A stretch of DNA of 44,057 nt from Geminicoccaceae bacterium. GTDB lineage: Bacteria; Pseudomonadota; Alphaproteobacteria; Geminicoccales; Geminicoccaceae. Within the stretch, counting starts at the first letter, position 1. The number at the start of each line of letters is the position of its first letter. The notes beneath the pieces are model-generated. The model searched no databases and had not been told where the DNA came from. It saw only the letters and a list, made by a program, of their open reading frames with translations. The stretch is taken from assembly GCA_011390475.1 (NCBI GenBank), contig JAABSG010000002.1:1-44057 (forward strand), given 5' to 3'. This document shows, piece after piece, positions 19,415-44,057 of this stretch. The position numbers and the translations under genes were made by a program.

Positions 19415-21016
19415 TCATCGGGCATCCCCGAGGATCAGGGCCGCCGCCTTCTCGGCGATCATGACGACCGGCGAATTGGTGTTGCCCGAGGTGATGGTGG
19501 GCATCACCGACGCGTCGACCACCCGCAGGCCGTCCAGCCCGTGCACCCTCAGCCGGGCGTCGACCACGGCCTGTCGATCCTCGGGCGGGCCCATCTTGCA
19601 GGTGCCGACGGGATGAAAAATGGTCGTGCCGAGCTCGCCCGCGGCCCGCACCAGATCCGCCTTCTCGGTGACCGTCGGACCCGGCCGGTACTCCTCGGGG
19701 GCAAAGGGCGCCAAGGCCGAAGCGCTCATGATCCGCCGGGTCAGGCGGATGGCGTCGGCCGCCACTTGCCGGTCCTCGTCGGTGCCGAGGTAGTTGGGGG
19801 CGATCGCCGGTGCTGCCTTGGGGTCCGAGGATTTCAGGCGCACCGTGCCGCGGCTGGTCGGCCGGAGATTGCAGACCGAGGCGGTGATCGCCGGGAAGGG
19901 ATGCAAGGGCTCGCCGAAGCGGTCGAGGCTCAGTGGCTGGACATGGTATTCGACATTGGGCGTGGCGAAGCTCGGATCGGTCTTGGCGAACGCGCCCATC
20001 GTCGAGGGCGCCATGCTCAAGGGGCCGGAGCGATAGAGCGCGTATTCCAGCGCCATCCTGGCCCTGCCGACGAGGCTCGAGGCCTGCTGGTTCAAGGTCA
20101 GCGTGTTCGCGACCTTGAAGACCGTGCGGATCTGCAGGTGGTCCTGCAGATTGCCGCCGACGCCCGGCAACGCGTGGCGAATCTCGATGTCGTGCTCGGC
20201 CAGCACGTCCGTTGGGCCGATCCCGGCGAGCTGCAGCAGCTGCGGCGAGCCGATCGCACCGCTGGCGAGAATGACCTCACGCGCCGCACTGGCCGATTTT
20301 GCCACTGTGTTCTCGACATAGTCGACCCCGGTGCAGCGTTTGCCCGCGAAGCGCAGCCCGGTCACCCGGGCACCGGTGACGACCAGGAGATTCTTTCTCG
20401 AGCGGGCGGGCTTGAGGAACGCCTTGGCGGTCGACCAGCGCACGCCTCTCTTCTGATTGACGTGGAAGTAGCCGCAGCCCTCGTTGCTGCCGCGGTTGAA
20501 GTCGGCGGTCGCCGGGATGCCGACCTCGGCCGCCGCCTCGCGGAAGGCATCGAGAATCGGCCATGCGACCCTGGGCTCCTCGACCCGCCACTCGCCGCCG
20601 GCACCGTGCAGGTCGTCCGCCCCGTGCACGAAATCCTCGGATTTCTTGAAGAACGGCAGGACATCGTCCCAGCTCCAGCCGGGATTGCCGAGCTGGCGCC
20701 AGTGGTCGTAGTCGGCGGCCTGGCCGCGCATGTAGATCATGCCGTTGATCGAGGAACAGCCGCCCAGCACCCGGCCGCGCGGATAGTGCAAGGCGCGCCC
20801 GCCGAGGCCGGGCTCGGGTTCGGTCTTGAAGCACCAGTCGGTCTTCGGATTGTTCTGGGTGTAGAGGTAGCCGATCGGCACATGAATCCAGAACCGCCGG
20901 TCGTGACCGCCGGCCTCGAGCAGCAGAACGCGGTTCCTCGGATCGGTCGACAGCCGGTTGGCCAGCACACAGCCGGCGCTGCCCGCGCCGATGACGATAT
21001 AGTCGAACCCGTCCAC
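19415..21016 (-). CDS. GMC-family oxidoreductase, choline dehydrogenase-like
   Basis: 533 residues, normal for the glucose-methanol-choline family. The FAD site is at the N terminus (YIVIGAGSAGCVLANRLS), the first GMC signature is near HYPRGRVLGGCSSINGMIYMRG, the second signature is SGAIGSPQLLQLAGIG, and the catalytic His is in FHPVGTCKMG. GNTNSPVVMIAEKAA closes the FAD site. Choline dehydrogenase (BetA) is the nearest named relative, but many paralogues oxidise other alcohols. No betB or betI is adjacent, so I leave the symbol empty. A choline-sulfatase gene at 37544-39061 makes a choline link possible. The start is GTG 21016, with GGGGG four bases ahead. Confidence 0.88.
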   Translation of the reverse strand: MDGFDYIVIGAGSAGCVLANRLSTDPRNRVLLLEAGGHDRRFWIHVPIGYLYTQNNPKTDWCFKTEPEPGLGGRALHYPRGRVLGGCSSINGMIYMRGQAADYDHWRQLGNPGWSWDDVLPFFKKSEDFVHGADDLHGAGGEWRVEEPRVAWPILDAFREAAAEVGIPATADFNRGSNEGCGYFHVNQKRGVRWSTAKAFLKPARSRKNLLVVTGARVTGLRFAGKRCTGVDYVENTVAKSASAAREVILASGAIGSPQLLQLAGIGPTDVLAEHDIEIRHALPGVGGNLQDHLQIRTVFKVANTLTLNQQASSLVGRARMALEYALYRSGPLSMAPSTMGAFAKTDPSFATPNVEYHVQPLSLDRFGEPLHPFPAITASVCNLRPTSRGTVRLKSSDPKAAPAIAPNYLGTDEDRQVAADAIRLTRRIMSASALAPFAPEEYRPGPTVTEKADLVRAAGELGTTIFHPVGTCKMGPPEDRQAVVDARLRVHGLDGLRVVDASVMPTITSGNTNSPVVMIAEKAAALILGDAR

Positions 21017-30648: not shown

Positions 30649-31101
30649 GGCTGACCGGGCAATCGCGACGCTGGTCGATCGACAGCATCGGCGGATTGGC
30701 CGTTGCCGTCGATCCATGTCGGGCGAGCTTCGCCGTCCATGACCGTGCTCGAAAGCGTCGCGATCAGGGGCTGATTTGGTCGGTCGGGTCTTGCCTCCCG
30801 CCCAGATCAGCGTCGGCGACACGACGCGTCTGTTGCATGAACTGAACGATGATGCGCGGGTTACCGTGGGCGAGCACGGCATGAGCGCGATGACGAAGGT
30901 CGAGCTGGCGGCCCTGGCCCATCTGATCGACCTGCAGGACAGAGCAGACCTGGGCAGCATCAGCCGCGACGTCGACCAGCGCGTCATCGGTGCCATGACC
31001 ACTCGGCACACCGACTCCGATGCCACTGAAAACGCTTGCGTCGCGGGGGCACTCCGGCTTCGATCGCTGTCGCAACCGCCGCCACGGGGAGAGCAGTCGG
31101 C
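30649..31101. other. Intergenic region ahead of the carnitine island, no confident gene
   Basis: 453 bases. A plus-strand frame from about 30776 includes a plausible segment (around HGMSAMTKVELAALAHLIDLQD) but has no clear ribosome site, no known family, and degrades into Arg/Pro/Ser-rich sequence that runs into the next gene's frame shadow. It could be a decayed gene. The carnitine operon promoter must lie here, but I saw no convincing motif. Confidence 0.45.
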
Positions 31102-32010
31102 ATGGGACTCGAGGTCAACCGCGAGGTCTTCGTCACCTGCGCCGTCACCGGTGCCGGCGACAGCACCGGCCGCTCGGACAAGGTGCCGGTGACACCCGAG
31201 GCGATCGCCGCCGCCGCCATCGAGGCGGCCGAAGCCGGGGCCGCCATCGCCCATCTCCACGTCCGCGACCCCGCCACCGGCAAGCCCGCCCGCGACCCCG
31301 CGCTCTACCGCGCCGCTGTCGACGAGATCCGCAAAGCCGGCGTCGACGTCGTCTTGAACCTCACCGCCGGCATGGGCGGCGACCTGACGCTGGGCTCGGT
31401 CGAGCATCCACTGCCGCCCGCCGAGGACGGCACCGACATGGCCGGCGCCACCGAGCGTCTGGCCCACGTGGCCGAGCTCCTGCCCGAAATCTGCACCCTC
31501 GACTGCGGCTCGATGAATTTCGGCGGCGGCAACTACGTGATGACCAACACGCCCGAGATGCTGGAGGCCATGGCCCGGCAGATCCAAACCCTGGGCGTCC
31601 GTCCGGAGATCGAGGTCTTCGATACCGGCCATCTTCGCCTCGCCGAGTGGCTGCACGAGATCGGCGCAATCGATGATCCGGTGCTGGTCCAGCTCTGCAT
31701 GGGCATCCCCTGGGGCGCACCGGACGATCTGGCGACCCTGGCCGCGATGACCAGCAACCTGCCCGAGGGCTGGACCTTCTCGGCCTTTTCGATCGCCCGC
31801 AACCAGCTGCCCTACGTGGCCTTGGCGGCCCTTGCCGGCGGCAACGCCCGGGTCGGCCTCGAGGACAACATCTGGCTGGAGAAGGGTGTGCTCGCCACCA
31901 ACGGCCAGCTGGTCGAGCGCGCGGTCGCCATCCTCCGGAACATGGGCTGCCGCATCCTCGGCCCGGCCGAGGTTCGCGAGCGCCTCCGCCTAGAGAAGCG
32001 CTGGGCCTGA
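31102..32010 (+). CDS. BKACE-family beta-keto acid cleavage enzyme, probably 3-dehydrocarnitine cleavage
   Basis: 302 residues. BKACE (COG3246) enzymes bind zinc and convert a beta-keto acid plus acetyl-CoA to acetoacetate plus a new CoA ester. The metal-binding HLHVRDP (His51, His53) is present, as are [28 protein letters not shown] and the C-terminal [20 protein letters not shown]. Its stop overlaps the start of the fused L-carnitine dehydrogenase. This pair is known as CdhC/CdhA(B)-like in carnitine-degrading pseudomonads and rhizobia. On that basis I infer the reaction 3-dehydrocarnitine + acetyl-CoA to betainyl-CoA + acetoacetate. ATG 31102 has GGGGAGAG close upstream. Confidence 0.88.
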
Positions 32011-33497
32011 TGGCCGACGCCGCATTCGAGGAAATCCGCACGGCGGCCGTCATCGGTGGCGGGGTGATCGGCGCCGGCTGGGCCGTGCGGCTGGCCCTCA
32101 ACGGCATCGACGTGCACCTCCACGACCCGGCACAGGGCATCGCCGCCAGGGTCGAGACCGTCATCGCCAACGCCGAGCGCGCCTGGGCGAAGCTCACCAT
32201 GGCCCCCCCTCGACGCCGCGGCCGCATCATCTATTCGTCGACCATCGGCGAAGCGGCCGACAATGCCGACTGGCTGTTCGAGGCCGTGCCCGAGCGTCTC
32301 GAGCTCAAGCACGCGGTCTACGCCGAGATCGAGGCCGCAGCCGCCCCCGACCTGCCGATCGCCTCTTCCACCTCGGGCATTCTGCCGTCCGACCTCCAGG
32401 CGCCGCTACGACACCCCGAGCGTCTCCTCGTCAGCCACCCCTTCAACCCCGTCTACCTGCTGCCGCTCGTCGAGATCGTGCCCGGCAAGCAGACAGCACC
32501 CGACCTGCTCGACCGCGCCATCGCCTTCCACGAAGCGCTCGGCATGCACCCCCTCCACGTCCGCCGTGAGATCCCGGCCTTCATCGCCGACCGGCTGCTC
32601 GAAGCCCTCTGGCGCGAGTCGCTTTGGCTGATCGAGGACGGCATCTGCACCACCGCGGAGCTGGATGATGCCGTCCGCTTCGGCTTCGGGCTGCGCTATG
32701 CCCAGATGGGCGTCTTCGAGACCTACCGGATCGCCGGCGGCGAGGCCGGCATGCGCCATTTCCTCGCCCAGTTCGGCCCCTGCCTGAACTGGCCCTGGAC
32801 CCGTCTCACCGACGTCCCCGACCTCGACCTGGACCTGATCGAGACGATCGCCGGCCAGTCCGACGCCCAGTCCGGTGCTCACAGCATCGCCGAACTCGAG
32901 CGCATTCGCGACGACAACCTCGTCGGCATCCTCCAGGCCTTGAAGGCCAATGACTGGGGTGCTGGCCGGACACTTCGCCGCCACGAGCGCCGTCTCTACG
33001 ACGCCGCCGCACCGACGAGGGAGCCCGACCTCACGCAACCGATCCGGACCCTCGAACGCCGCGTCCCGCCCGAATGGGCCGATTACAACAACCACATGAA
33101 CGAGGCCCACTATCTGACCTGTTTCTGCGACGCCTCGGACACTCTCATGCGCCTGATCGGCGTCGACGCGGACTACCTCGCCAATGGTGGCTCCTACTTC
33201 ACCGTCGAAACCCACATCCGCCATCTCGCCGAAGCGCGGGTCGGCGAGCCCATCCACGCGCTCACCCGCGTAATCGACGGCAGCGGCAAGCGCCTCCACC
33301 TCTTCCACGAGCTTTTCGACGGCAACGGTCAGTGCCTCGCCACGGGCGAGCACCTGCTGCTCCACGTCTCGCTCGAGACACGTCGTGTTAGCGAGCCCGG
33401 CCCTCCAGTCCGCCGGCGCCTCGACGAGATCGCCACCCACCACGCCCGCTTGGCAAGGCCTGAAGGCCTCGGCCGCGCGGTCGGCGATCCGCGCTAG
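32010..33497 (+). CDS. L-carnitine dehydrogenase fused to a betainyl-CoA thioesterase-like domain
   Basis: 495 residues. The N-terminal part (1 to ~320) is a 3-hydroxyacyl-CoA-dehydrogenase-fold enzyme: VIGGGVIGAGWAVRLALNGIDV for NAD, SSTSGILPSDLQ, and SHPFNPVYLLPLVE with the catalytic His-Glu pair, all L-carnitine dehydrogenase features. The C-terminal part (about 345-460) is a hot-dog 4HBT-type thioesterase (PPEWADYNNHMNEAHYL). Separate genes make these activities in Pseudomonas (cdhA, cdhB), while a fused form is known from rhizobia. It oxidises carnitine to 3-dehydrocarnitine, and the thioesterase probably releases glycine betaine from betainyl-CoA. ATG 32010 overlaps the BKACE stop (TGATG). 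Confidence 0.9.
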   Translation: MADAAFEEIRTAAVIGGGVIGAGWAVRLALNGIDVHLHDPAQGIAARVETVIANAERAWAKLTMAPPRRRGRIIYSSTIGEAADNADWLFEAVPERLELKHAVYAEIEAAAAPDLPIASSTSGILPSDLQAPLRHPERLLVSHPFNPVYLLPLVEIVPGKQTAPDLLDRAIAFHEALGMHPLHVRREIPAFIADRLLEALWRESLWLIEDGICTTAELDDAVRFGFGLRYAQMGVFETYRIAGGEAGMRHFLAQFGPCLNWPWTRLTDVPDLDLDLIETIAGQSDAQSGAHSIAELERIRDDNLVGILQALKANDWGAGRTLRRHERRLYDAAAPTREPDLTQPIRTLERRVPPEWADYNNHMNEAHYLTCFCDASDTLMRLIGVDADYLANGGSYFTVETHIRHLAEARVGEPIHALTRVIDGSGKRLHLFHELFDGNGQCLATGEHLLLHVSLETRRVSEPGPPVRRRLDEIATHHARLARPEGLGRAVGDPR

Positions 33498-33507
33498 GGA
33501 GCGGGCC

Positions 33508-34671
33508 TTGGACTTCGGGCTCACGGACGAGCAGCGCCTGATCGTCGAGACGACGCGCGCCTTCGTCGAGAACGAGCTCTACCCCCACGAGGCCGAGGTC
33601 GAGCGCACGGGCGTCCTCCGCCGCGAGCTCGTCGAAGAAGTGAAAGCCAAGGCGATCCGGGCCGGCCTCTACGCCGCCAACATGCCCGAGGCGGTCGGTG
33701 GCGCCGGGCTCGATACTCTCACTTGGCTGCTCTACGAGAAGGAGCTCGGCCGCGCCAACTACGCGCTGCATTGGACCTGCGTCGCCCGGCCCTCGAACAT
33801 CCTCCTCGCCGGCACGCCAGAGCAGCGCGAACGCTACCTCTACCCCTGCGTGCGTGGCGAGAAATGGGACTGCCTCGCCATGACCGAGCCCGGCGCCGGT
33901 TCGGATCTCCGCGGCATGAAGGCCACGGCCCGAAGAGACGGCGCCGACTGGGTGCTCAACGGCACAAAGCACTTCATCTCCCACGCGGACATCGCCGATT
34001 TCGCCGTCACCTTCATGGCCTCGGGCGAAGAGCCGGGCCCGCGCGCTCCGAGAAAGCTGATCACCGCCTTCTTCGTCGACAAGGGCACACCCGGCTTCAC
34101 CGTTCGCCCCGGCTACGGCAACGTCTCGCACCGCGGCTACACGAACGCCATCCTGGAGTTCGACGATTGCCGCCTGCCGGCCGAAGCCGTCCTCGGCGAG
34201 GTGCACCGAGGCTTCGAGGTCGCCAACAACTGGCTCGGCGCCACCCGCCTCCAGGTCGGGGCGACCTGCCTCGGAAGAGCCGAGCGCGCCTTCGCCCACG
34301 CGCTGGACTGGGCCTCTACCCGCGAGCAGTTCGGCCAGAAGATCGGCAGGTTCCAGGGGATTTCCTTCAAGCTCGCCGACATGGCGGTCGAGATGAAGGC
34401 CGCCGAGCTGATGATCTTCGAGGCCGGCTGGGCCTACGATCGGGGCACCGCCACCGACGCGCAGATGGCGATGGCCAAGCTCAAGGCCACCGAGATGCTG
34501 GCGATGGTGGCCGATGAGGCGATCCAGATCCACGGCGGCATGGGCCTCATGGACGAGCTACCGCTCGAGCGTATCTGGCGCGACGCCAGGGTCGAGCGCA
34601 TCTGGGAGGGCACGAGCGAGATCCAGCGCCACATCATCTCCCGGGCATTGCTCAGACCACTCGGCGCCTGA
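33508..34671 (+). CDS. Acyl-CoA dehydrogenase (possible gamma-butyrobetainyl/crotonobetainyl-CoA enzyme)
   Basis: 387 residues with all three ACAD regions: the N-terminal LTDEQRLIVETTRAFVENEL, the FAD segment MTEPGAGSDLRGMKATA, and the C-terminal HGGMGLMDELPLERIWRDARVERIWEGTSEIQRH. The Glu in IWEGTSEIQ is the usual catalytic base position, so it should be active. It transfers electrons to ETF. In this operon the logical substrate is gamma-butyrobetainyl-CoA, giving crotonobetainyl-CoA for the CaiD-like gene; this is inferred from neighbours, as the sequence itself is a generic ACAD. TTG 33508 has GGGAG ahead and is 11 bases from the previous stop. Confidence 0.85.
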   Translation: MDFGLTDEQRLIVETTRAFVENELYPHEAEVERTGVLRRELVEEVKAKAIRAGLYAANMPEAVGGAGLDTLTWLLYEKELGRANYALHWTCVARPSNILLAGTPEQRERYLYPCVRGEKWDCLAMTEPGAGSDLRGMKATARRDGADWVLNGTKHFISHADIADFAVTFMASGEEPGPRAPRKLITAFFVDKGTPGFTVRPGYGNVSHRGYTNAILEFDDCRLPAEAVLGEVHRGFEVANNWLGATRLQVGATCLGRAERAFAHALDWASTREQFGQKIGRFQGISFKLADMAVEMKAAELMIFEAGWAYDRGTATDAQMAMAKLKATEMLAMVADEAIQIHGGMGLMDELPLERIWRDARVERIWEGTSEIQRHIISRALLRPLGA

Positions 34672-34675
34672 CCAC

Positions 34676-36742
34676 TTGCCCGACCTCGCCCGCCTCCTGC
34701 GCCCCCGCTCGATCGCCGTCCTCGGCGGCAGTTGGGCCATGAACGTCGTCGAGCAGTGCCTGAAGGCCGGCTATGCGGGGTCCATCTGGCCGGTTCATCC
34801 GACCCGGACCGAACTCCACGGCCTCGCTTGCTACCGCGGCATCGAGGCGCTGCCCGACGCCCCCGATGCCGCCTTCATCGGCGTCAACAGCGAGCGCAGC
34901 ATCGAGATCGTGGCGGCACTCGCCTCGCGGCGGGCCGGCGGCGCCGTCTGCTTCGCCTCGGGTTACCTCGAAAGCGAGACCGAGGGCACGGGCGGTCGCG
35001 ATCTTCAGGCCCGGCTGCTCGCCGCCGCAGGCGGCATGCCGATCCTCGGTCCCAACTGCTACGGCTTCATCAACTATCTCGACGGCGCCCCCCTCTGGCC
35101 CGACCAGCACGGCGGCACGGCTTGCGCATGCGGGGTCGCCATCTTGACGCAATCGTCGAACATCGCGCTCAACCTCACCATGCAGCGCCGCGGCCTGCCC
35201 ATCGCCTATGTCGTCACGCTCGGCAACCAGGCGCAGCTCGATGCCGCCGAGGTCGCGTCCGCCCTGCTCGACGACCCGCGGGTGACCGCCATCGGCCTCC
35301 ACCTCGAGGGCATCAGCAGGATACGTGCCTTCGAGGCCATGGCCGAAAAGGCGCGCGTGCTGGCCAAGCCGGTCATCGCCCTCAAGGTTGGCAAGAGTGC
35401 CGAAGCCCGCGCCCAGACACTCTCGCACACCGCCTCGCTGGCCGGCTCGGCCGCCGGCAGCACCGCCTTTCTCGACCGGCAAGGCATCCCCGCCGTCGGC
35501 ACGCTGCCGGTCTTTCTCGAAACCCTGAAGCTGCTGCACGTTCACGGCCCGCTGGCCGGCGACCGCCTGCTTTCCGTCAGCTGCTCGGGCGGCGAGGCGA
35601 GCCTGATGGCCGACTTGGCGATGGATCATCGGGTCGGCTTTCCGCCCTTCCCACCCGGCCAGAGGAAGCGCCTCGGCGCCATCCTCGGCCCCAGGGTCAA
35701 GCTCGCCAACCCGCTGGACTACCACACCTATATCTGGGGCGATGGCAAGGCGATGACCCGCGCCTTCACGACCGCCCTCGACGGGCCCTTCGACCTCGCC
35801 CTCTTCATCCTCGACTGGCCACGGGCGGACCGCTGCACCGCTCCCGGCTGGGAGATCGCGCTCGACGCGATCACCGATGCCGCAAGAGCGACCGGCAAGC
35901 CCACCGCCATCGTCGCCTCCCTGCCCGAGAACCTCCCCGAAACGCTCGCCATCCGGCTGATCGAGCTCGGCATCGTTCCGCTCGTCGGCATGCAGGAAGC
36001 CCTGCTCGCCATCGCGGCAGCAAGCCGGGCCGGGCAGAACATGGGCAGGCCGTCGCCGATGCCCGTGGCCCTCGCGGGCGAGGCGGGCGAGGATGCCGTG
36101 GTGCTCACCGAGGTCGAAGCGAAGGCGGCGCTCGAGGCCTACGGCCTGCCGACCCCCGAACGGGCCCTCGCCCGGAGTGCCGATGCGGTCGTGCGAGCCG
36201 CTGCCGCCCTCCGCTACCCCCTGGCCCTCAAGGGTCTCGGCATCGCCCACAAGAGCGACGTCGGCGCTGTCGCCCTCGGCCTTCGCGATCCGGACGAACT
36301 CGGTCGGGCGGCCGAGCGCATGGCCGGCGTCACCAGCGGCTTTCTCGTCGAGGAGATGATCGAGGGTGCCGTCCTGGAGCTCATCCTCGGCATCGTCGCC
36401 GACCCGCCCTACGGCTTTGTCCTGACCATCGGCGCCGGCGGCCTCTTGACCGAGCTCTGGCAGGACAGCGTCACTCTCCTTTTGCCGGCGAGCGACCTCG
36501 AGATCGAGCGCGCCCTCGAAGGCCTGCGCCTCTACGCCGTGCTGCAAGGCTATCGCGGCCGCCCCGGCGGCGACATCCGGGCCATCGTCCGGGCCGTCCA
36601 GGCGATCGCGGCCTATGCGGGCGACCACCACGACCGCCTCCTGGAGCTCGACATCAACCCCTTGATCGTCCGCCGCGAGGGGGCGATTGCCGCCGACGCG
36701 CTGATCCGCCTCGCCGCCCCGAAGGAGGCCGCCACGCCATGA
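34676..36742 (+). CDS. ADP-forming acyl-CoA ligase (acetate-CoA ligase/Acd family)
   Basis: 688 residues. Domain order: CoA-binding Rossmann domain (1 to ~125, LLRPRSIAVLGGS), two succinyl-CoA-ligase-like domains (to ~440), and a C-terminal ATP-grasp domain (from ~470, TEVEAKAALEAYGLPTPE). The phosphohistidine region LSHTASLAGSAAG carries His251, and GPNCYGF and LELDINPLIV are family blocks. It would make acyl-CoA from acid, CoA and ATP, giving ADP. In the carnitine context it may activate gamma-butyrobetaine or crotonobetaine, a job done by an AMP-forming ligase (CaiC) in E. coli; that is inference. TTG 34676 starts 4 bases after the ACAD stop. The stop overlaps the next start (ATGA). Confidence 0.85.
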   Translation: MPDLARLLRPRSIAVLGGSWAMNVVEQCLKAGYAGSIWPVHPTRTELHGLACYRGIEALPDAPDAAFIGVNSERSIEIVAALASRRAGGAVCFASGYLESETEGTGGRDLQARLLAAAGGMPILGPNCYGFINYLDGAPLWPDQHGGTACACGVAILTQSSNIALNLTMQRRGLPIAYVVTLGNQAQLDAAEVASALLDDPRVTAIGLHLEGISRIRAFEAMAEKARVLAKPVIALKVGKSAEARAQTLSHTASLAGSAAGSTAFLDRQGIPAVGTLPVFLETLKLLHVHGPLAGDRLLSVSCSGGEASLMADLAMDHRVGFPPFPPGQRKRLGAILGPRVKLANPLDYHTYIWGDGKAMTRAFTTALDGPFDLALFILDWPRADRCTAPGWEIALDAITDAARATGKPTAIVASLPENLPETLAIRLIELGIVPLVGMQEALLAIAAASRAGQNMGRPSPMPVALAGEAGEDAVVLTEVEAKAALEAYGLPTPERALARSADAVVRAAAALRYPLALKGLGIAHKSDVGAVALGLRDPDELGRAAERMAGVTSGFLVEEMIEGAVLELILGIVADPPYGFVLTIGAGGLLTELWQDSVTLLLPASDLEIERALEGLRLYAVLQGYRGRPGGDIRAIVRAVQAIAAYAGDHHDRLLELDINPLIVRREGAIAADALIRLAAPKEAATP

Positions 36743-37536
36743 GCGAACCCACCCGCACCGAACCCGTCCGCACCGAACGACGGGGCCATGTCCTCGAGGT
36801 CACCCTCGACCGACCCAAAGCCAATGCCATCGACCTCGCCACCAGCCGCCGCATGGGCGAGGTCTTCAAGGTCTTCCGTGACGACCCGGAACTGCGCTGC
36901 GCCCTGCTCACCGCCGCCGGCCCCAAGTTCTTCTGCCCCGGCTGGGACCTCAAGGCCGCGGCCGAGGGCGATGCCGTCGATGGCGACTACGGGGTCGGTG
37001 GATTCGGCGGGTTGCAGGAGCTGCCCGACATGAACAAGCCGGTGGTCTGTGCCGTGAACGGCATCTGCTGCGGCGGCGGGCTCGAGCTCGCCCTTGCCTG
37101 CGACATCATCCTCGCCGCCGAGCACGCCACCTTCGCGCTTCCCGAAATCCGCTCCGGCACCGTGGCCGACGCCGCCTCGATCAAGCTGCCCAAGCGCATT
37201 CCCTACCACATCGCCATGGAGATGCTGCTCACCGGTCGCTGGCTCGATGCCGCCGAGGCGCATCGCTGGGGCTTCGTGAACCATGTCCTGCCCGCCGACC
37301 GACTGCTCGCCGAGGCCCGTGCCATGGCCGAGCACATCGCGGCGGGGCCACCCTTGGTCATGGCCGCGATCAAGGAGATCGTCCGCGAGGCCGAGGCCAT
37401 GCGGTTCCAAGACGCGCTCAATCGCATCACCAAACGCCAGTTCCGCACCGTCGACACCCTCTACGGCAGCGAGGACCTGCACGAAGGCTTCCGCGCCTTC
37501 ACCGAGAAGCGTGATCCGGTCTGGAAAGGCCGCTGA
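36739..37536 (+). CDS. caiD: Carnitinyl-CoA dehydratase-like enoyl-CoA hydratase
   Basis: 265 residues (E. coli CaiD has 261). The match is unusually specific: LEVTLDRPKANAIDL, MGEVFKVFRDDPELR, GWDLKAAAEG, and the C-terminal FTEKRDPVWKGR are near-identical to CaiD. The two catalytic acids are kept, Glu116 in GGGLELALA and Glu136 in FALPEIRSG, spaced 20 residues as in CaiD. It hydrates crotonobetainyl-CoA to L-carnitinyl-CoA or the reverse. ATG 36739 overlaps the stop of the CoA ligase. The stop lies 7 bases from the stop of the convergent choline sulfatase. Confidence 0.9.
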   Translation: MSEPTRTEPVRTERRGHVLEVTLDRPKANAIDLATSRRMGEVFKVFRDDPELRCALLTAAGPKFFCPGWDLKAAAEGDAVDGDYGVGGFGGLQELPDMNKPVVCAVNGICCGGGLELALACDIILAAEHATFALPEIRSGTVADAASIKLPKRIPYHIAMEMLLTGRWLDAAEAHRWGFVNHVLPADRLLAEARAMAEHIAAGPPLVMAAIKEIVREAEAMRFQDALNRITKRQFRTVDTLYGSEDLHEGFRAFTEKRDPVWKGR

Positions 37537-37543
37537 CGGTCAC

Positions 37544-39061
37544 TCATTCGCCTCTGGGATACCGTTTCTCCTCCTCGAGAACATTGAGATCCATGTGGTT
37601 CCTCATATACCGCTCGGACGCCCGCTGCAGTGGCTGGTAGTCCCAGGGATAGTAGGCCCCGTTCCTTAAACTGCGGTAAACGACCAGCCGCCGCGCCTGG
37701 CTTTGACGTACCTCGATATCGTAGCTCGGCATGTCCCAAAACGTGTTGGCGAGGCTCGAAAGCCGTTCGAAATCATCAGCATAGGCGGGATCGCCGGCAC
37801 AATTCACAAGCTCGTCCGGGTCGGAAGCAAGGTCGAAGAGCTGGGGTGGGTCGGCGGGGGAGACCACGAGCTTGTAGCGGCTGTCTCTGAGCGCGGCCAT
37901 GGGCGCTATCGACCCCTCGGCCGCGTATTCCATCATCACTGGCCCACTGCGTGCGGCACCTTGGGCAACGGGCAAGAGGCTCTCGCCGTCGGTCCAGGGG
38001 GCGATCTCGGCGAGATCGATGCCGGCCAAATCGGCCAGGGTCGGCAGCACGTCGAGCGTGCTGACCGGCGTTTCGATCGTCGCCGCCGGCAAGCCCGGGG
38101 CCACCAGGAGCAGCGGCACGCGGACCGAACCCTCGAAAAAGCTCATTTTGAACCAGAGCCCGCGCTCACCGAGCATGTCGCCGTGATCGCTGAGGAACAG
38201 CACGATCGTCCGTTCGGCCTGCCGCGTCCGCTCGAGCACGCCGAGTAGCTCGCCGATCTTCTCGTCTAGGTAGCTGATATTGGCGAAATAGGCCCGCCTC
38301 GAGCGGCGGATATGCTCGTCCGTGATCGCAAAGCGCCGCCAGTCCGAGGCATCGAGCAGGCGCCGCGAATGCTGGTCGTGATCCGCATAAGCGATCGCTG
38401 GCACGCGCGGCTCGAGTTGGTCGCAATCGGCGTAGAGGTCCCAGAACCGCCGTCGCGCCACATAAGGGTCGTGCGGGTGGGTGAAGCTGACAGTCAGGCA
38501 CCAGGGCCGCGCGTCGGCACCCCGCGCGAGGTCGTAGAGCTTCTGCGTCGCGAAGAACGCCACCTCGTCGTCGTATTCGAGCTGGTTGGTGATCTCGGCC
38601 GTCCCGGCACCCGTCACCGAGCCCAGATTGTGGTACCACCAGTCGATCCGCTCATCGGGCCTGGTCCAATCCGGCGTCCAGCCGAAGTCGGCTGGATAAA
38701 CGTCCGTCGTCAGCCGCTCCTCGAATCCGTGCAGCTGGTCGGGGCCGACGAAATGCATCTTGCCCGAGAGGCAAGTGGCATAGCCCGCCGCCCGCAAGTG
38801 ATGGGCGAAGGTGGGAATCTCGGCCGAGAACTCGGCGGCGTTGTCGTAGACCCGCGTTCGCCTGGGCAGCTGCCCCGACATGAAGGAAGCACGCCCCGGC
38901 GCGCACAAGGGACTGGCCGTGTAGCAGTTCGTGAAGCGCACCGATCGATCCGCCAGGGCCCGCAGATGCGGTGTGTGCAGGAAGCCCGCCGGCCCGTCCG
39001 GAAAGAAGGTGCCATTGAGCTGATCGACCATGAAGATCAGGATGTTCGGCCGCTCCGTCAT
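37544..39061 (-). CDS. betC: Choline-sulfatase
   Basis: 505 residues (about 510 in Sinorhizobium). It hydrolyses choline-O-sulfate to choline and sulfate. The sulfatase formylglycine motif CxPxR is SPLCAPGRASFMSGQ with Cys53; other BetC-specific blocks are RPNILIFMVDQLNG, FAHHLRAAGYATCLSGKMHFVGPDQLHGFEERL and WYHNLGSVTGAG, plus the metal site LSDHGDMLGERGLW. No signal peptide is present, so it is cytoplasmic as expected. ATG 39061 is preceded by GGCGGAAA. It is divergent from the dimethylglycine-dehydrogenase-like gene (82-base gap) and convergent with caiD. The choline would feed the betaine route. Confidence 0.93.
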   Translation of the reverse strand: MTERPNILIFMVDQLNGTFFPDGPAGFLHTPHLRALADRSVRFTNCYTASPLCAPGRASFMSGQLPRRTRVYDNAAEFSAEIPTFAHHLRAAGYATCLSGKMHFVGPDQLHGFEERLTTDVYPADFGWTPDWTRPDERIDWWYHNLGSVTGAGTAEITNQLEYDDEVAFFATQKLYDLARGADARPWCLTVSFTHPHDPYVARRRFWDLYADCDQLEPRVPAIAYADHDQHSRRLLDASDWRRFAITDEHIRRSRRAYFANISYLDEKIGELLGVLERTRQAERTIVLFLSDHGDMLGERGLWFKMSFFEGSVRVPLLLVAPGLPAATIETPVSTLDVLPTLADLAGIDLAEIAPWTDGESLLPVAQGAARSGPVMMEYAAEGSIAPMAALRDSRYKLVVSPADPPQLFDLASDPDELVNCAGDPAYADDFERLSSLANTFWDMPSYDIEVRQSQARRLVVYRSLRNGAYYPWDYQPLQRASERYMRNHMDLNVLEEEKRYPRGE

Positions 39062-39143: not shown

Positions 39144-41585
39144 TTGAGCGAACTGCCTAGCCACGCCCGGGTCGTCATCATCGGCGGTGGGGCCGTCGGC
39201 GTCTCCGCCCTCTACCACCTGGCCCTGGCCGGCTGGACCGATTGTGTACTGCTGGAGAAAAACGAGCTCACCGCCGGCTCCACCTGGCACGCCGCAGGCA
39301 ACGTGCCGACCTTCTCGGCCTCCTGGTCGATCATGAACATGCAGCGTTACTCGGCCGAACTCTATCGCGGGCTCGCGGACGCCACCGGCTACCCGATGAA
39401 CTACCACGTCACCGGCTCGGTCCGCCTCGGCCATTCCAAGGAGCGCCTGCGGGAGTTCCAGCGGGTGGTCGGTATGGGCCGCTACCAGGGCATGGAGCTC
39501 GACATCCTCTCACCCGACGAGCTCGAGACACGCTACCCCTTCGCCGAGACCCACGACCTCACCGGCGCCCTCTACGACCCCTATGACGGTGACATCGACC
39601 CGGCCCAGCTGACCCAGGCCATGGCCAAGGGTGCCCGCGACCTGGGTGCCCGGATCATCCGCTTCTGCCCGATGACCGGCGCCGTCCGTGAGGGTGACCA
39701 ATGGCGCATCCGAACACCCCAGGGCGACATCCGATGCGAGAGCGTGGTCAACGCCGCCGGCTACTACGCAAGCGAGGTCGGCCGTCACTTCGGCCGCGAC
39801 GTGCCGATGATGGTGATGAGCCACCAATACATCCTCTTCGAGACGATCCCCGAGCTCGAGGCCTGGTCGAAGGAAGTCGGCCACAAGCTGCCGCTGCTCC
39901 GTGATGTCGACAGCTCCTACTACCTCAGGCAGGAGAAGTTCGGGATGAATCTCGGCCCTTACGAGCGCAACTGCCGGGCGCACTGGGCCACACCCGACGA
40001 CCCGATGCCCGACGACTTCTCCTTCCAGCTCTTCCCCGACGACCTCGACCGGCTCGAATGGTACCTCGAGGACGCCGTCGCCCGCGTCCCCATCCTCGGC
40101 ACCGCCGGGCTGTCGCGCGTCATCAACGGTCCGATCCCCTACACCCCCGACGGCAACCCGCTGATCGGCCCGATGCCGGGTGTACCCAATGCCTACGAGG
40201 CCTGCGTCTTCACCTTCGGCATCTGTCAGGCCGGTGGCGCCGGCAAGGTCTTGGCCGAATGGGTGATCCACGGCGAGACCGAGTGGGACATGTGGTCCTG
40301 CGACCCCAGGCGGTTCACCAGCTTCTGCGATGAGTCCTACTGCATCGCCAAGGGGATGGAGGTCTACGGCCACGAATACGCCATGCACTTCCCCCGCCAT
40401 GCCTGGCCCGCGGGCAGGCCCCAGAAGCTCTCCGCCGTCCACGACCGGACGACGGCCATGGGTGCCCAGTACGGTGCGGCCAACGGCTGGGAGCGGGCCA
40501 ACTGGTACGCTCTGCCCGGCGACGACATCTCCGAAGAAGCGACCCAAACCTGGTCGCGCGAAGGCCCCTGGCACCAGCGCATGCGCGAGGAATGCCTGGC
40601 CGTCCGTGACGCGGCAGGTCTCCTCGACCTCCCCGGCTTCTCCCGCTTCAGGCTCGAAGGCGAGGGGGCCCGCGACTGGCTCGATCAGCTGGTCACCGGC
40701 CGCGTCCCGAAACCCGGCCGGCTCGGTCTCGGCTATTTCGCCGATGACGCGGGCCGGATCGTCACCGAGATGTCGATCCTCGCCATGGACGACGGCAACT
40801 TTCGCCTGATCACCGCCGCCGCCGCCCAATGGCACGACCGCGACTGGCTCCTGAAGCACCTCGCACCGGGCCTGGAGCTGACCGACGAGACCGAGGCCCT
40901 GACCTGCCTCTTGCTCACCGGCCCGCTGAGCCGCGCCATCCTGGCCCTGCTCACCACCGCCGACCTCGCTCGCCCCTGGCTCAGCCATCAGGCAGCCGAG
41001 GTCGCGGGCCAACCCTGCCACCTCGTGCGCGTCTCCTTCGCGGGCGAACTCGGCTGGGAGATCCACTGCGCGCCCGCAGCCGCCCCCGCCATCTGGGACG
41101 CGCTGATGCGCTATGGTGAGCCGCACGGGCTCCGACCCTTCGGCATGTTAGCCCTCGACTCGCTCCGTCTGGAGAAGGGCTACCGCGCCTGGAAGGGCGA
41201 TCTCTCGACCGACTACACGGTGCTGCAGGCTGGCCTGGAGCGCTTCGTCGACTGGACCAAGCCCGCCTTCAAAGGCCGTGCCGCCCTCCTGGCCGAACGC
41301 GAAGCCGGTCCAAAGCGCGGCTTTGCCACGCTGATCGTCGAGGCCGGCGATTGCGATGCGCCCTATATGTCGACCCTCTGGCATGACGGCCAAGTCGTCG
41401 GCGAGACGACCTCCGGCGGCTGGGGCCACCGCATCGACCGCTCGATCGCGCTTGCCGTCGTCCAGGCCGACCTTGCCCGACCCGGCACCAGCCTCGAGGT
41501 CGAGATCTTCGGCGAGCGCTTTCCCGCGACCGTCCAGCCGGAAGGCCCGCTTTGGGACCCCACAAACGCCCGCATCCGGGCCTGA
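39144..41585 (+). CDS. Dimethylglycine/sarcosine dehydrogenase-like flavoprotein with GcvT domain
   Basis: 813 residues in two halves. Residues 1 to ~390 are a DAO-type FAD domain (VVIIGGGAVGVSALYHLALAG; STWHAAG with His49, the usual site of covalent FAD). The rest, from ~420, is a GcvT/folate-binding part (LLDLPGFSRFRLEGEGARDWLDQL, SFAGELGWEIHCAP, LRLEKGYRAWKGDLSTDYTVLQAGL). This is the layout of dimethylglycine and sarcosine dehydrogenases, which oxidise an N-methyl group and pass the one-carbon unit to tetrahydrofolate. The exact N-methyl substrate is not fixed. TTG 39144 has GGGAGGTGAG just ahead. It is followed 11 bases later by the MttB-like gene. Confidence 0.9.
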   Translation: MSELPSHARVVIIGGGAVGVSALYHLALAGWTDCVLLEKNELTAGSTWHAAGNVPTFSASWSIMNMQRYSAELYRGLADATGYPMNYHVTGSVRLGHSKERLREFQRVVGMGRYQGMELDILSPDELETRYPFAETHDLTGALYDPYDGDIDPAQLTQAMAKGARDLGARIIRFCPMTGAVREGDQWRIRTPQGDIRCESVVNAAGYYASEVGRHFGRDVPMMVMSHQYILFETIPELEAWSKEVGHKLPLLRDVDSSYYLRQEKFGMNLGPYERNCRAHWATPDDPMPDDFSFQLFPDDLDRLEWYLEDAVARVPILGTAGLSRVINGPIPYTPDGNPLIGPMPGVPNAYEACVFTFGICQAGGAGKVLAEWVIHGETEWDMWSCDPRRFTSFCDESYCIAKGMEVYGHEYAMHFPRHAWPAGRPQKLSAVHDRTTAMGAQYGAANGWERANWYALPGDDISEEATQTWSREGPWHQRMREECLAVRDAAGLLDLPGFSRFRLEGEGARDWLDQLVTGRVPKPGRLGLGYFADDAGRIVTEMSILAMDDGNFRLITAAAAQWHDRDWLLKHLAPGLELTDETEALTCLLLTGPLSRAILALLTTADLARPWLSHQAAEVAGQPCHLVRVSFAGELGWEIHCAPAAAPAIWDALMRYGEPHGLRPFGMLALDSLRLEKGYRAWKGDLSTDYTVLQAGLERFVDWTKPAFKGRAALLAEREAGPKRGFATLIVEAGDCDAPYMSTLWHDGQVVGETTSGGWGHRIDRSIALAVVQADLARPGTSLEVEIFGERFPATVQPEGPLWDPTNARIRA

Positions 41586-41596
41586 GGAGCCGACGC

Positions 41597-43159
41597 ATGG
41601 CCGAGACCGTCCTCGACGAGCCCACTTCCCAGGAGCCTCGGGGCCGCCGCTCGGGCGGGAGGGCTGCCCGCCACGCGCTCCGGGCATCCCCATTGGCGCA
41701 GAACCTCCGCCCGGTCCGCCCGGGGCTCGAAGGCGGCCAATACCGCCCGCTCTCGGACGATGGCGTGCAGCGCATCCACGGAGCAGCCCTCGATGCGCTC
41801 GAAAAGATCGGCCTCGCCGACGCCCCGCCGTCGGGGGTCGAGATTTTGACCGGCGCAGGTGCGGTGCAGGGCGAGGACGGCCGCATCCGCTTCCCGCGTG
41901 CCCTCGTCGAGGACATGCTGGCCATCGCCGCCCGCGACATCATGCTTTTTGCCCGCGATCCCGCCTTCGACCTCGACCTCACCGGCAGCCGCGTCCACTA
42001 CGGCACCGCTGGCGCCGCGGTCCATGTGGTCGATGTCGAAACCCGGGAATACCGCCAGAGCACGGCGCAGGACCTCTACGACGCGGCCAAGCTCGCCCAG
42101 GCACTCGACAACATCCACTTCTTCCAGCGGCCGATGGTGTGCCGCGACATCGCCGACAATTACGAGATGGACGTCAACACGCTCTACGGGGCTTGTGCCG
42201 GGACCACCAAGCATGTCGGCACCAGCTTCTCCGACCCCGCCCACGTCCAGGGCTGCTTCGAGCTTCTCCACCTGATCGCGGGCTCCGAGGTGGCCTGGCG
42301 CGAGCGGCCCTTCGTCTCGAACTCCAACTGCTTCGTCGTCCCGCCGATGAAATTCGCGACCGAGAGTTGCCTCACCATGGAGGCCTGCATTCGGGGCGGC
42401 ATGCCGATGCTGCTCCTCTCCGCGGGCCAGGCCGGCGCCACGGCCCCGGCGCCTTTGGCCGCCGCCATCGTCCAGGCCGTGGCCGAGTGCCTGGCCGGCG
42501 TCGTCTACGTCAACGCCATGGCCCCCGGCCACCCTGCGGTCTTCGGCACCTGGCCCTTCGTTTCGGACTTGCGCACCGGCGCCATGTCCGGCGGCTCCGG
42601 CGAGCAGGCCCTTCTGACCGCCGGCTGCGCCCAAATGCATCGCTTCTACGGCCTGCCGGGCGGGGCTGCTGCGGGCATCGCGGACGCCAAGCTGCCCGAC
42701 ATGCAGGCCGGCTGGGAACAGGCGATCTCCAACGTCATGGCCGGCCTCTCCGGCCTCAACCTCGTCTACGAGGCCGCCGGCATGCACGCCTCGCTCCTCG
42801 GCTTCTGCCACGAGAGCCTGATCCTCGGCGACGACCTCCTGGGCCAGGTGCTCCGCTGCGTGCGCGGCATCGAGGTCACCGAGGACAGCGTCTCGCTGGA
42901 TGCCATGCGCGCCGTCTGCCTGGGTGGTCCCGGCCACTATCTCGGCCACCCGCAAACCCTGGGCCTGATGCAATCCGAATACGTCTATCCCCTGACCGCC
43001 GACCGCACGAGCCCGAAGGAATGGGTCGAACTCGGCCGCCCCGACCTCGTGGCCAACGCCACCCGGCGCAAGCACGAGATCCTGGCGGCATCCAAGGCAC
43101 CGCTGATCGAGCCTGTGACCGACGCCCGTATTCGGGCAGCCTTCAAAATCCACGTCTGA
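41597..43159 (+). CDS. MttB-superfamily methyltransferase (non-pyrrolysine)
   Basis: 520 residues, the length of trimethylamine methyltransferase MttB homologues. Family blocks: LDALEKIGL near residue 60, GVEILTGAGAVQGEDGRIRFP, HYGTAGAAVHVVD, NSNCFVVPPMKF, and GGSGEQALLTAGCAQMHRFYGLPGG. There is no in-frame TAG, so no pyrrolysine; such MttB-like proteins include the glycine betaine methyltransferase MtgB. They move a methyl group from a quaternary amine to a corrinoid protein. No corrinoid protein gene is in the window. The position, between a DMGDH-like enzyme and after a carnitine-to-betaine operon, points to betaine or a related quaternary amine. ATG 41597 follows the DMGDH-like stop by 11 bases. 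Confidence 0.87.
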   Translation: MAETVLDEPTSQEPRGRRSGGRAARHALRASPLAQNLRPVRPGLEGGQYRPLSDDGVQRIHGAALDALEKIGLADAPPSGVEILTGAGAVQGEDGRIRFPRALVEDMLAIAARDIMLFARDPAFDLDLTGSRVHYGTAGAAVHVVDVETREYRQSTAQDLYDAAKLAQALDNIHFFQRPMVCRDIADNYEMDVNTLYGACAGTTKHVGTSFSDPAHVQGCFELLHLIAGSEVAWRERPFVSNSNCFVVPPMKFATESCLTMEACIRGGMPMLLLSAGQAGATAPAPLAAAIVQAVAECLAGVVYVNAMAPGHPAVFGTWPFVSDLRTGAMSGGSGEQALLTAGCAQMHRFYGLPGGAAAGIADAKLPDMQAGWEQAISNVMAGLSGLNLVYEAAGMHASLLGFCHESLILGDDLLGQVLRCVRGIEVTEDSVSLDAMRAVCLGGPGHYLGHPQTLGLMQSEYVYPLTADRTSPKEWVELGRPDLVANATRRKHEILAASKAPLIEPVTDARIRAAFKIHV

Positions 43160-43172
43160 ACGGAGCCAGCTC

Positions 43173-44057
43173 ATGCGTCTCGGATTCGTCGGCCTCGGCG
43201 AACTCGGTGGCCATCTCGCGGCCAACCTCGCCCAGGCCGGCTTCGACCTCGTCGTCCACGATCGAGACATGGGTCGTGCCGACCGGCACCTAGCCCTTGG
43301 CGCGCATGGTGCCGAGAGCCCGCGTGAGCTCGCCCGCGACCGCGATGTGGTCCTCACCTGCCTGCCCTCGCCGAACGCGTCGCGCGCGGTTCTGGCCGAG
43401 CTCCTCGAAACGCTGCCCGAGGGTGCCACCTGGATCGAGCTTTCGACCCTGGGACCCGACGACGTCCGAAGCCTGGCCGCTCACGCCGAGGCTAGAGGCA
43501 TCCGGACCCTCGAAGCGCCGGTCACCGGCGGCGTGCATCTGGCGGCAAGGGGTGAGATCACCGTGCTCACCGGCGGCGACGCGGATCTGGTCGCCCGCTT
43601 CGCCCCGGTCTTCGCGGCCATCGGCAACAAGGTCATCCACATGGGTCCCTTGGGCTCGGCCGCCGTCATCAAGGTCATCACCAACATGCTGGCCTTCGTC
43701 CACCTCGTGGCCGACGGCGAGGCCCTGATGCTCGCCAAACGCTCGGGCCTCGATCTCGCCAAGTCGTGGCAGGCCATCACCGCCAGCTCCGGTACCAGCT
43801 TCGTCCACGAGACCGAGGGCCAGCTCGTCTTGAACGGCAGCTACGACATCGGCTTCTCGATGGACTTGGCGCTGAAGGACCTGGGCTTTGCGGCACAGCT
43901 CGGCGCCGAGACCGGCGTTCCGCTCGACCTCGCGGCCCTCACCCGCGCCACCTTCGAGCGTGGCAAGGCCGCCTATGGGGGCAGCGCTCCCTCCACCCAG
44001 ATCGTCAAGCTCTTGGAAGACATGCTGCAGACCGACCTCCGCGCCCCGGGCTTTCCG
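43173..44057 (+). CDS. 3-hydroxyisobutyrate dehydrogenase-like (beta-hydroxyacid dehydrogenase), 3' end outside window
   Basis: 295 codons from ATG 43173 run open to the window edge, so the stop is missing but the protein is almost complete for this family (about 290-300). The NAD(P) site is RLGFVGLGELGGHLAANLAQAG; the substrate-binding APVTGGVHLAARGEITVLTGGD and the catalytic Lys region GPLGSAAVIKVITNML follow. These enzymes oxidise beta-hydroxyacids or reduce semialdehydes. It starts 13 bases after the MttB-like stop and is probably co-transcribed. A role in metabolising the aldehyde or acid product of the pathway is inference. Confidence 0.87.
   Translation, partial: MRLGFVGLGELGGHLAANLAQAGFDLVVHDRDMGRADRHLALGAHGAESPRELARDRDVVLTCLPSPNASRAVLAELLETLPEGATWIELSTLGPDDVRSLAAHAEARGIRTLEAPVTGGVHLAARGEITVLTGGDADLVARFAPVFAAIGNKVIHMGPLGSAAVIKVITNMLAFVHLVADGEALMLAKRSGLDLAKSWQAITASSGTSFVHETEGQLVLNGSYDIGFSMDLALKDLGFAAQLGAETGVPLDLAALTRATFERGKAAYGGSAPSTQIVKLLEDMLQTDLRAPGFP

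Follow-up and report, generated by a model that had tools for sequence, protein, structure and literature searches.

A probable betaine methyltransferase gene paired with that of a dimethylglycine dehydrogenase-like enzyme

Alphaproteobacterial genomes carry up to ten MttB paralogues, few of which have a known substrate, and these enzymes are thought to govern the flow of methylated osmolytes to the one-carbon pool. What, then, does one such methyltransferase, here called MttBw, do in a Geminicoccaceae bacterium, where it lies on a stretch of 44,057 nucleotides (the window) that is an entire contig (C115), both ends of which are the window ends? We consider it quite probable that MttBw N-demethylates a betaine in a corrinoid-dependent reaction, with its corrinoid protein MtgC encoded elsewhere and the adjoining flavoprotein DMGDH-A, named after dimethylglycine dehydrogenase (DMGDH), acting next in the route. 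This answer draws on the domains and gene order of the locus, on MtgD and RamA in the genome and MtgC in relatives, on the co-occurrence of MtgC with MttBw, and on the exchange of MttBw for a Rieske oxygenase in some operons; from these we infer the demethylation reaction itself, an MtgC in this organism and the kind of substrate. Corrinoid-dependent demethylation by MttBw may be regarded as well supported.

An earlier reading of the letters alone (the sequence-only reading) had placed an MttB homologue between a DMGDH-like flavoprotein and a beta-hydroxyacid dehydrogenase, and all three genes were found where it had put them. DMGDH-A (39144–41585, + strand), an FAD/tetrahydrofolate oxidoreductase of the DMGDH type, starts at a TTG with a strong upstream GGGAGGTGA, and its assignment as a dimethylglycine dehydrogenase is based on the DAO, FAO_M, GCV_T and GCV_T_C domain layout together with the FAD-linking His motif STWHAAG. 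It scores 580 bits against rat DMGDH (4PAB) and also retains the HQY, SYYLRQ and NGPI-Y-PD motifs, so that domain layout and active-site motifs are those of the mammalian enzyme; the two are only 36% identical, however, and dimethylglycine is a putative substrate of DMGDH-A. The TGA ending this gene at 41585 is followed by an 11-base spacer (GGAGCCGACGC, 41586–41596, + strand), with a GGAG resembling a ribosome-binding site, and then by the MttBw ATG at 41597, exactly the distance that had been claimed. This arrangement suggests that the two genes are co-transcribed and their translation coupled.

MttBw itself (41597–43159, + strand; 520 residues from the ATG) belongs to the MttB superfamily, since it matches PF06253 over profile positions 1–490 of 500 with 359 bits (cut-off 25; E=3e-107). 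Its reading frame opens at a TTG (41552), the ATG with GGAG in front being the likelier start. Thirteen bases past its end begins a reading frame of the HIBADH/beta-hydroxyacid dehydrogenase family (43173–44057, + strand; PF03446 and PF14833), which is open at the contig end.

The corrinoid partner

A corrinoid route for betaine is known in aerobes. According to the available part of Mausz et al. 2025 (PNAS; PMC12478193), mutants of the aerobe Ruegeria pomeroyi show that MtgC and MtgD are required for glycine betaine use, whereas the action of an MttB paralogue on betaine is inferred from proteomics and not settled by mutants; pfam06253 paralogues, of which a genome may have as many as seven, are suggested to serve other methylated compounds. 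The route that had been called little described is therefore, in the aerobic MtgBCD-dependent form given in that part of the paper, one published in 2025 (PMC12478193). It is likewise an alphaproteobacterial corrinoid route with MtgC, MtgD and several MttB paralogues.

In the mechanism that we propose, MttBw would transfer one methyl group from the betaine to Co(I) of MtgC, a small corrinoid protein whose gene would lie outside the window; MtgD would pass the methyl from MtgC to tetrahydrofolate, and RamA together with DUF1638 would hold the cobalt reduced. The remaining tertiary amine would go to the co-transcribed DMGDH-A, where the next methyl would be removed oxidatively as methylene-tetrahydrofolate, and a second DMGDH-like enzyme, found in many relatives, may remove the third.

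The genome assembly (458 contigs, 86.65% complete) encodes a single RamA/RACo protein (C235, 376–2511) and, beside it, an MtgD-like pterin-binding protein (C235, 2399–3301) that scores 371 bits against the methyl-tetrahydrofolate:corrinoid methyltransferase model PRK07535 (cut-off 259); MtgD and RamA, by which we recognize an MtgBCD system, are thus both in the genome. A small MtgC-type protein is present in both congeners, the copy of one of them (G002) with B12-binding and B12-binding_2 domains. We have also searched a class-wide sample of 386 other alphaproteobacterial genomes, using an MttBw profile built from nine relatives and an MtgC profile built from three. MtgC is present in 43 of the 45 genomes with MttBw, in 36 of 38 whose MttBs are all of other types, and in none of the 303 without an MttB (Fisher p about 5e-53 for the MttBw–MtgC association, not corrected for ancestry); the 24 named MttBw isolates that were searched all carry it. 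The presence of MtgD and RamA, the MtgC of the congeners and the co-occurrence all support the earlier suggestion that a corrinoid partner is encoded outside the window.

Several observations weigh against this reading of MttBw. A PF02607 search of the 86.65%-complete assembly and a search with a congener MtgC as query both failed to find MtgC; two of the 45 MttBw genomes (G195 and G256) are without MtgC; the relative G010, 95% complete and with five MttB hits, gave no B12-binding_2 match, from MetH or MtgC; and the co-occurrence count ignores shared ancestry. Several pocket positions of MttBw also differ from those of MtgB, the glycine betaine methyltransferase (for example Ala280 and Tyr395, against Leu at both). 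The searches for MtgC in the organism's own genome brought up only MetH, one weak match and an AerR-like protein next to bch genes, and none of the three was accepted. That AerR-like B12-binding protein (genome G000, contig C415) adjoins apparent bacteriochlorophyll genes, read as chlorophyll synthase and geranylgeranyl reductase, and the host accordingly seems to be a photosynthetic alphaproteobacterium.

Could MttBw work without a corrinoid protein, or not work at all? Direct transfer of the methyl to tetrahydrofolate on DMGDH-A, which the sequence-only reading had allowed for, would suit a window without a corrinoid protein and a neighbour with a folate domain, but the nearly exceptionless co-occurrence of MtgC makes such an acceptor unlikely, MtgD and RamA are present in the genome, and the characterized superfamily members in the cited literature use a corrinoid protein; we consider it most improbable. 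A degenerate or non-catalytic MttBw, with betaine used by other means, would agree with the presence of a better MtgB orthologue in the same genome (see below), but we give it very little credence: the frame is intact, the Pelagibius homologue is 81% identical, conservation is at least 97% at 77 columns across 130 homologues, and the operon is conserved across relatives. That MttBw is a pyrrolysine trimethylamine methyltransferase is next to inconceivable, although the Rfam model PYLIS_3 (the mttB pyrrolysine insertion sequence) matches above threshold at 42678–42776 (+ strand) and Gly110 and Tyr364 of MttB are retained as Gly143 and Tyr395. MttBw reaches only 320 bits against TIGR02369 (cut-off 525), its frame has no internal stop or amber codon up to the terminal TGA, and Ile365 occupies the pyrrolysine position, so that a pyrrolysine MttB is excluded by sequence and the earlier description as non-pyrrolysine holds. 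The PYLIS_3 match is evidently homologous coding sequence without a UAG, and could mislead automatic annotation.

The corrinoid-dependent demethylase that we favour also has relatives of known structure or function. Methanosarcina barkeri pyrrolysine MttB (7XCL) has the fold and the Gly110/Tyr364 equivalents in common with MttBw, which differs from it in lacking pyrrolysine and in its expected quaternary substrate. The non-pyrrolysine MttBs of Eubacterium limosum (MtcB, MtyB, MtpB and MthB), likened here by description, each demethylate one quaternary amine via a corrinoid protein; their host is an anaerobic acetogen, unlike the aerobic setting of MttBw.

Conserved operon and exchange with a Rieske oxygenase

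We have examined 120 MttBw loci, 80 from named genomes and 40 from the class-wide sample. The usual order at the 80 named loci is a divergent LysR gene followed by DMGDH-A, DMGDH-B and MttBw, often with a BADH-like aldehyde dehydrogenase (ALDH) and HIBADH. DMGDH-A orthologues are mostly 60–78% identical to the window protein, and DMGDH-B about 33%. MttBw has a DMGDH-like gene within 300 bp at 47/80 named and 26/40 class-wide loci, a frequency that rules out a chance pairing, and within 10 kb at 57/80 and 28/40, respectively; HIBADH orthologues lie within 10 kb at 36 of the 80 named loci. Pelagibius (L121) shares with the window the direct succession of DMGDH-A and MttBw. The proposed coupling of the MttB homologue to a DMGDH step is supported by gene pairs that recur in relatives.

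The best evidence on the kind of substrate comes from two rhizobial plasmids, of Neorhizobium NCHU2750 and Rhizobium CC-CFT758, where LysR, DMGDH-A and DMGDH-B are followed by a Rieske oxygenase in the slot of MttBw, and then by carnitine-type genes. The best family of these Rieske proteins is GbcA, matched at full length with 257 and 256 bits, below the equivalog cut-off of 670, and their PDB relatives include the demethylase 4qup/3vca, which we take to be the stachydrine demethylase Stc2. In three rhizobia MttBw and the Rieske enzyme stand side by side, and on a Leisingera caerulea plasmid (L362, 8971–11813) a 43% homologue of the Rieske enzyme directly precedes a 38% MttBw homologue, with an ABC transporter upstream. 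GbcAB and Stc2 are O2-dependent iron enzymes with a fold unrelated to MttBw, yet a relative of theirs fills its operon slot behind DMGDH-A/B. Exchange with a GbcA/Stc2-like demethylase supports a quaternary ammonium compound as the MttBw substrate; since neither slot enzyme is a glycine betaine equivalog, it also suggests that the betaine of the operon need not be glycine betaine. If the swap is real, two chemistries would do one job in one slot, with differing demands for oxygen and cobalt.

In the window's own genome, the only Rieske alpha protein (contig C6) scores 120 bits against the GbcA cut-off of 670 and was rejected as GbcA on that score. The stated absence of GbcAB from the window thus extends, for GbcA, to the 86.65%-complete assembly. 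The accompanying call for a genome search for MttC-like proteins, RamA and GbcAB has accordingly been answered in part: RamA was found, and MtgC and GbcA were not found in an assembly of this completeness.

A clade distinct from MtgB

The genome encodes three PF06253 genes, and MttBw is not the one closest to characterized MtgB. The gene on C263 scores 597 bits against Sinorhizobium meliloti 4YYC and 388 against Desulfitobacterium hafniense MtgB (2QNE/9YCE), whereas MttBw scores just 192 against MtgB. In a maximum-likelihood tree, MtgB, 4YYC, C263, C450 and mtgC-adjacent genes form clade I, and MttBw falls in clade II with Pelagibius, Hoeflea, Sinorhizobium and Rhodobacter homologues (support for the separation, 100/99); the long branch of the Methanosarcina row makes the root uncertain. 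By its position in the tree MttBw is therefore not an MtgB, although the two share the PF06253 fold, the lack of pyrrolysine and the MtgC/MtgD/RamA companions. An MtgB-clade gene scoring above 490 bits accompanies MttBw in each of the 24 named isolates, and in Rhizobiaceae it directly adjoins mtgC. The MtgB orthologue of this genome is, to judge by these scores and the tree, the C263 gene and not the window gene, and an aerobic PF06253 gene should not automatically be named mtgB. Set beside the published aerobic route, MttBw would appear to be a new branch, forming a clade apart and keeping a conserved DMGDH operon of its own.

Which betaine?

A substrate other than glycine betaine, such as beta-alanine betaine, gamma-butyrobetaine or carnitine, has roughly an even chance in our estimate, and glycine betaine a chance somewhat short of even. 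The substrate of this clade should be directly testable, given the fixed flavoprotein partner and the mapped corrinoid system.

The specific proposal that MttBw demethylates glycine betaine in parallel with C263, dimethylglycine going to DMGDH-A and sarcosine to DMGDH-B with glycine as the end product, is a live but tentative option. DMGDH-A is nearer to mammalian DMGDH than are DMGDH-B or the MtgB-adjacent flavoprotein, with the active-site motifs kept, and the slot Rieske protein is closest to GbcA. The window has carnitine and choline-sulfate genes next to DMGDH-A, and the products of both lead to betaine; carnitine genes also adjoin the DMGDH-A–MttBw pair in Pacificoceanicola (L163) and in genome G390 (L269) and the operon in L138, and choline sulfatase adjoins MttBw in L147. 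Carnitine genes occur near MttBw in only 4 of the 120 loci, but in different families. A hydroxypyruvate reductase near the Neorhizobium operon and a glycerate kinase near that of Rhizobium CC-CFT758 would be expected downstream of glycine and serine, and in Mesorhizobium an ABC transporter of the glycine betaine type is found near a 44% relative. On the other hand, the slot Rieske proteins remain below the GbcA cut-off and the MttBw pocket is unlike that of MtgB. The glycine betaine assignment of the sequence-only reading, for which the carnitine neighbours and the well-conserved DMGDH still speak, is weakened because C263 is a far better MtgB orthologue and MttBw belongs to another deep clade, and all 24 of the named isolates have an MtgB-clade gene as well. 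Action on an omega-betaine (beta-alanine betaine or gamma-butyrobetaine), after which DMGDH-A/B would release the free omega-amino acid and the semialdehyde would be disposed of by an aminotransferase or by ALDH with HIBADH, we judge rather unlikely as a specific answer. In R. leguminosarum, R. ruizarguesonis, Agrobacterium and NGR234, pairs of DMGDH-A/B orthologues are followed by the omega-aminotransferase AptA (715 and 718 bits for the two scored, cut-off 500), a family that acts well on beta-alanine (PMC3281772); two MttBw loci, L158 of SAR116 and L279, have AptA at a distance of about 3 kb, and HIBADH and ALDH would fit a semialdehyde such as malonate semialdehyde. But the AptA operons are without MttBw, so that the inference runs via DMGDH-A, AptA is near MttBw in just 2 of the 120 loci, and NCBIfam and PDB scans gave no substrate assignment for HIBADH or ALDH. 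A broader proposal, still speculative to our minds, is that MttBw founds a second aerobic B12-dependent betaine demethylase branch with a substrate other than glycine betaine (beta-alanine betaine, for example), in a DMGDH-A/B operon whose O2-dependent Rieske enzyme and O2-independent B12 enzyme are swapped between species.

Five of the rhizobial plasmid loci (L354, L355, L356, L360 and L361) carry DMGDH-A/B, EtfBA, a polyamine-like ABC transporter, AptA, FolD and PurU, with no first demethylase. The EtfAB, FolD and PurU genes fit a folate-linked demethylation, and the cluster is evidently a self-contained catabolic module for N-methyl amino acids. The Ruegeria pomeroyi megaplasmid (L351, 9929–19249) has a 45% MttB homologue together with a class III aminotransferase, two DMGDH-like enzymes and an Xsc-like thiamine pyrophosphate enzyme (401 bits, cut-off 620); it may serve the use of a further betaine, such as taurine betaine.

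Neighbouring genes in the window

A betaine-producing operon had been claimed next to the MttB module, and upstream of it there are indeed a carnitine-to-betaine set and a choline sulfatase. The set (31036–37536, + strand) comprises a BKACE protein, probably the dehydrocarnitine cleavage enzyme (31036–32010; PF05853, E=2.5e-97), a fusion of L-carnitine 3-dehydrogenase with a thioesterase, the latter probably for betainyl-CoA (32010–33497; PRK07531, 724 bits, cut-off 592), an acyl-CoA dehydrogenase of the carnitine/gamma-butyrobetaine set, assigned by Pfam (33385–34671), an ADP-forming acyl-CoA ligase (34514–36742; PF13549, PF13607 and PF13380) and a CaiD-like crotonobetainyl-CoA hydratase (36742–37536; PRK03580, 314 bits, under the cut-off of 500), all on the + strand. 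It would make a complete-looking gene set for converting gamma-butyrobetaine and carnitine to betaine. The choline sulfatase (37544–39061, − strand; TIGR03417, 849 bits, cut-off 433) is divergent from DMGDH-A; its frame opens at 39181, with a likely start, MTERPNIL, at 39061. Since the carnitine set on the + strand is followed by this gene on the other strand, the MttB module would be a transcription unit separate from the carnitine genes. About 18 kb from the module lies a GMC oxidoreductase (19415–21016, − strand), which comes near choline dehydrogenase with 587 bits against a cut-off of 605 (betA, 497 against 732).

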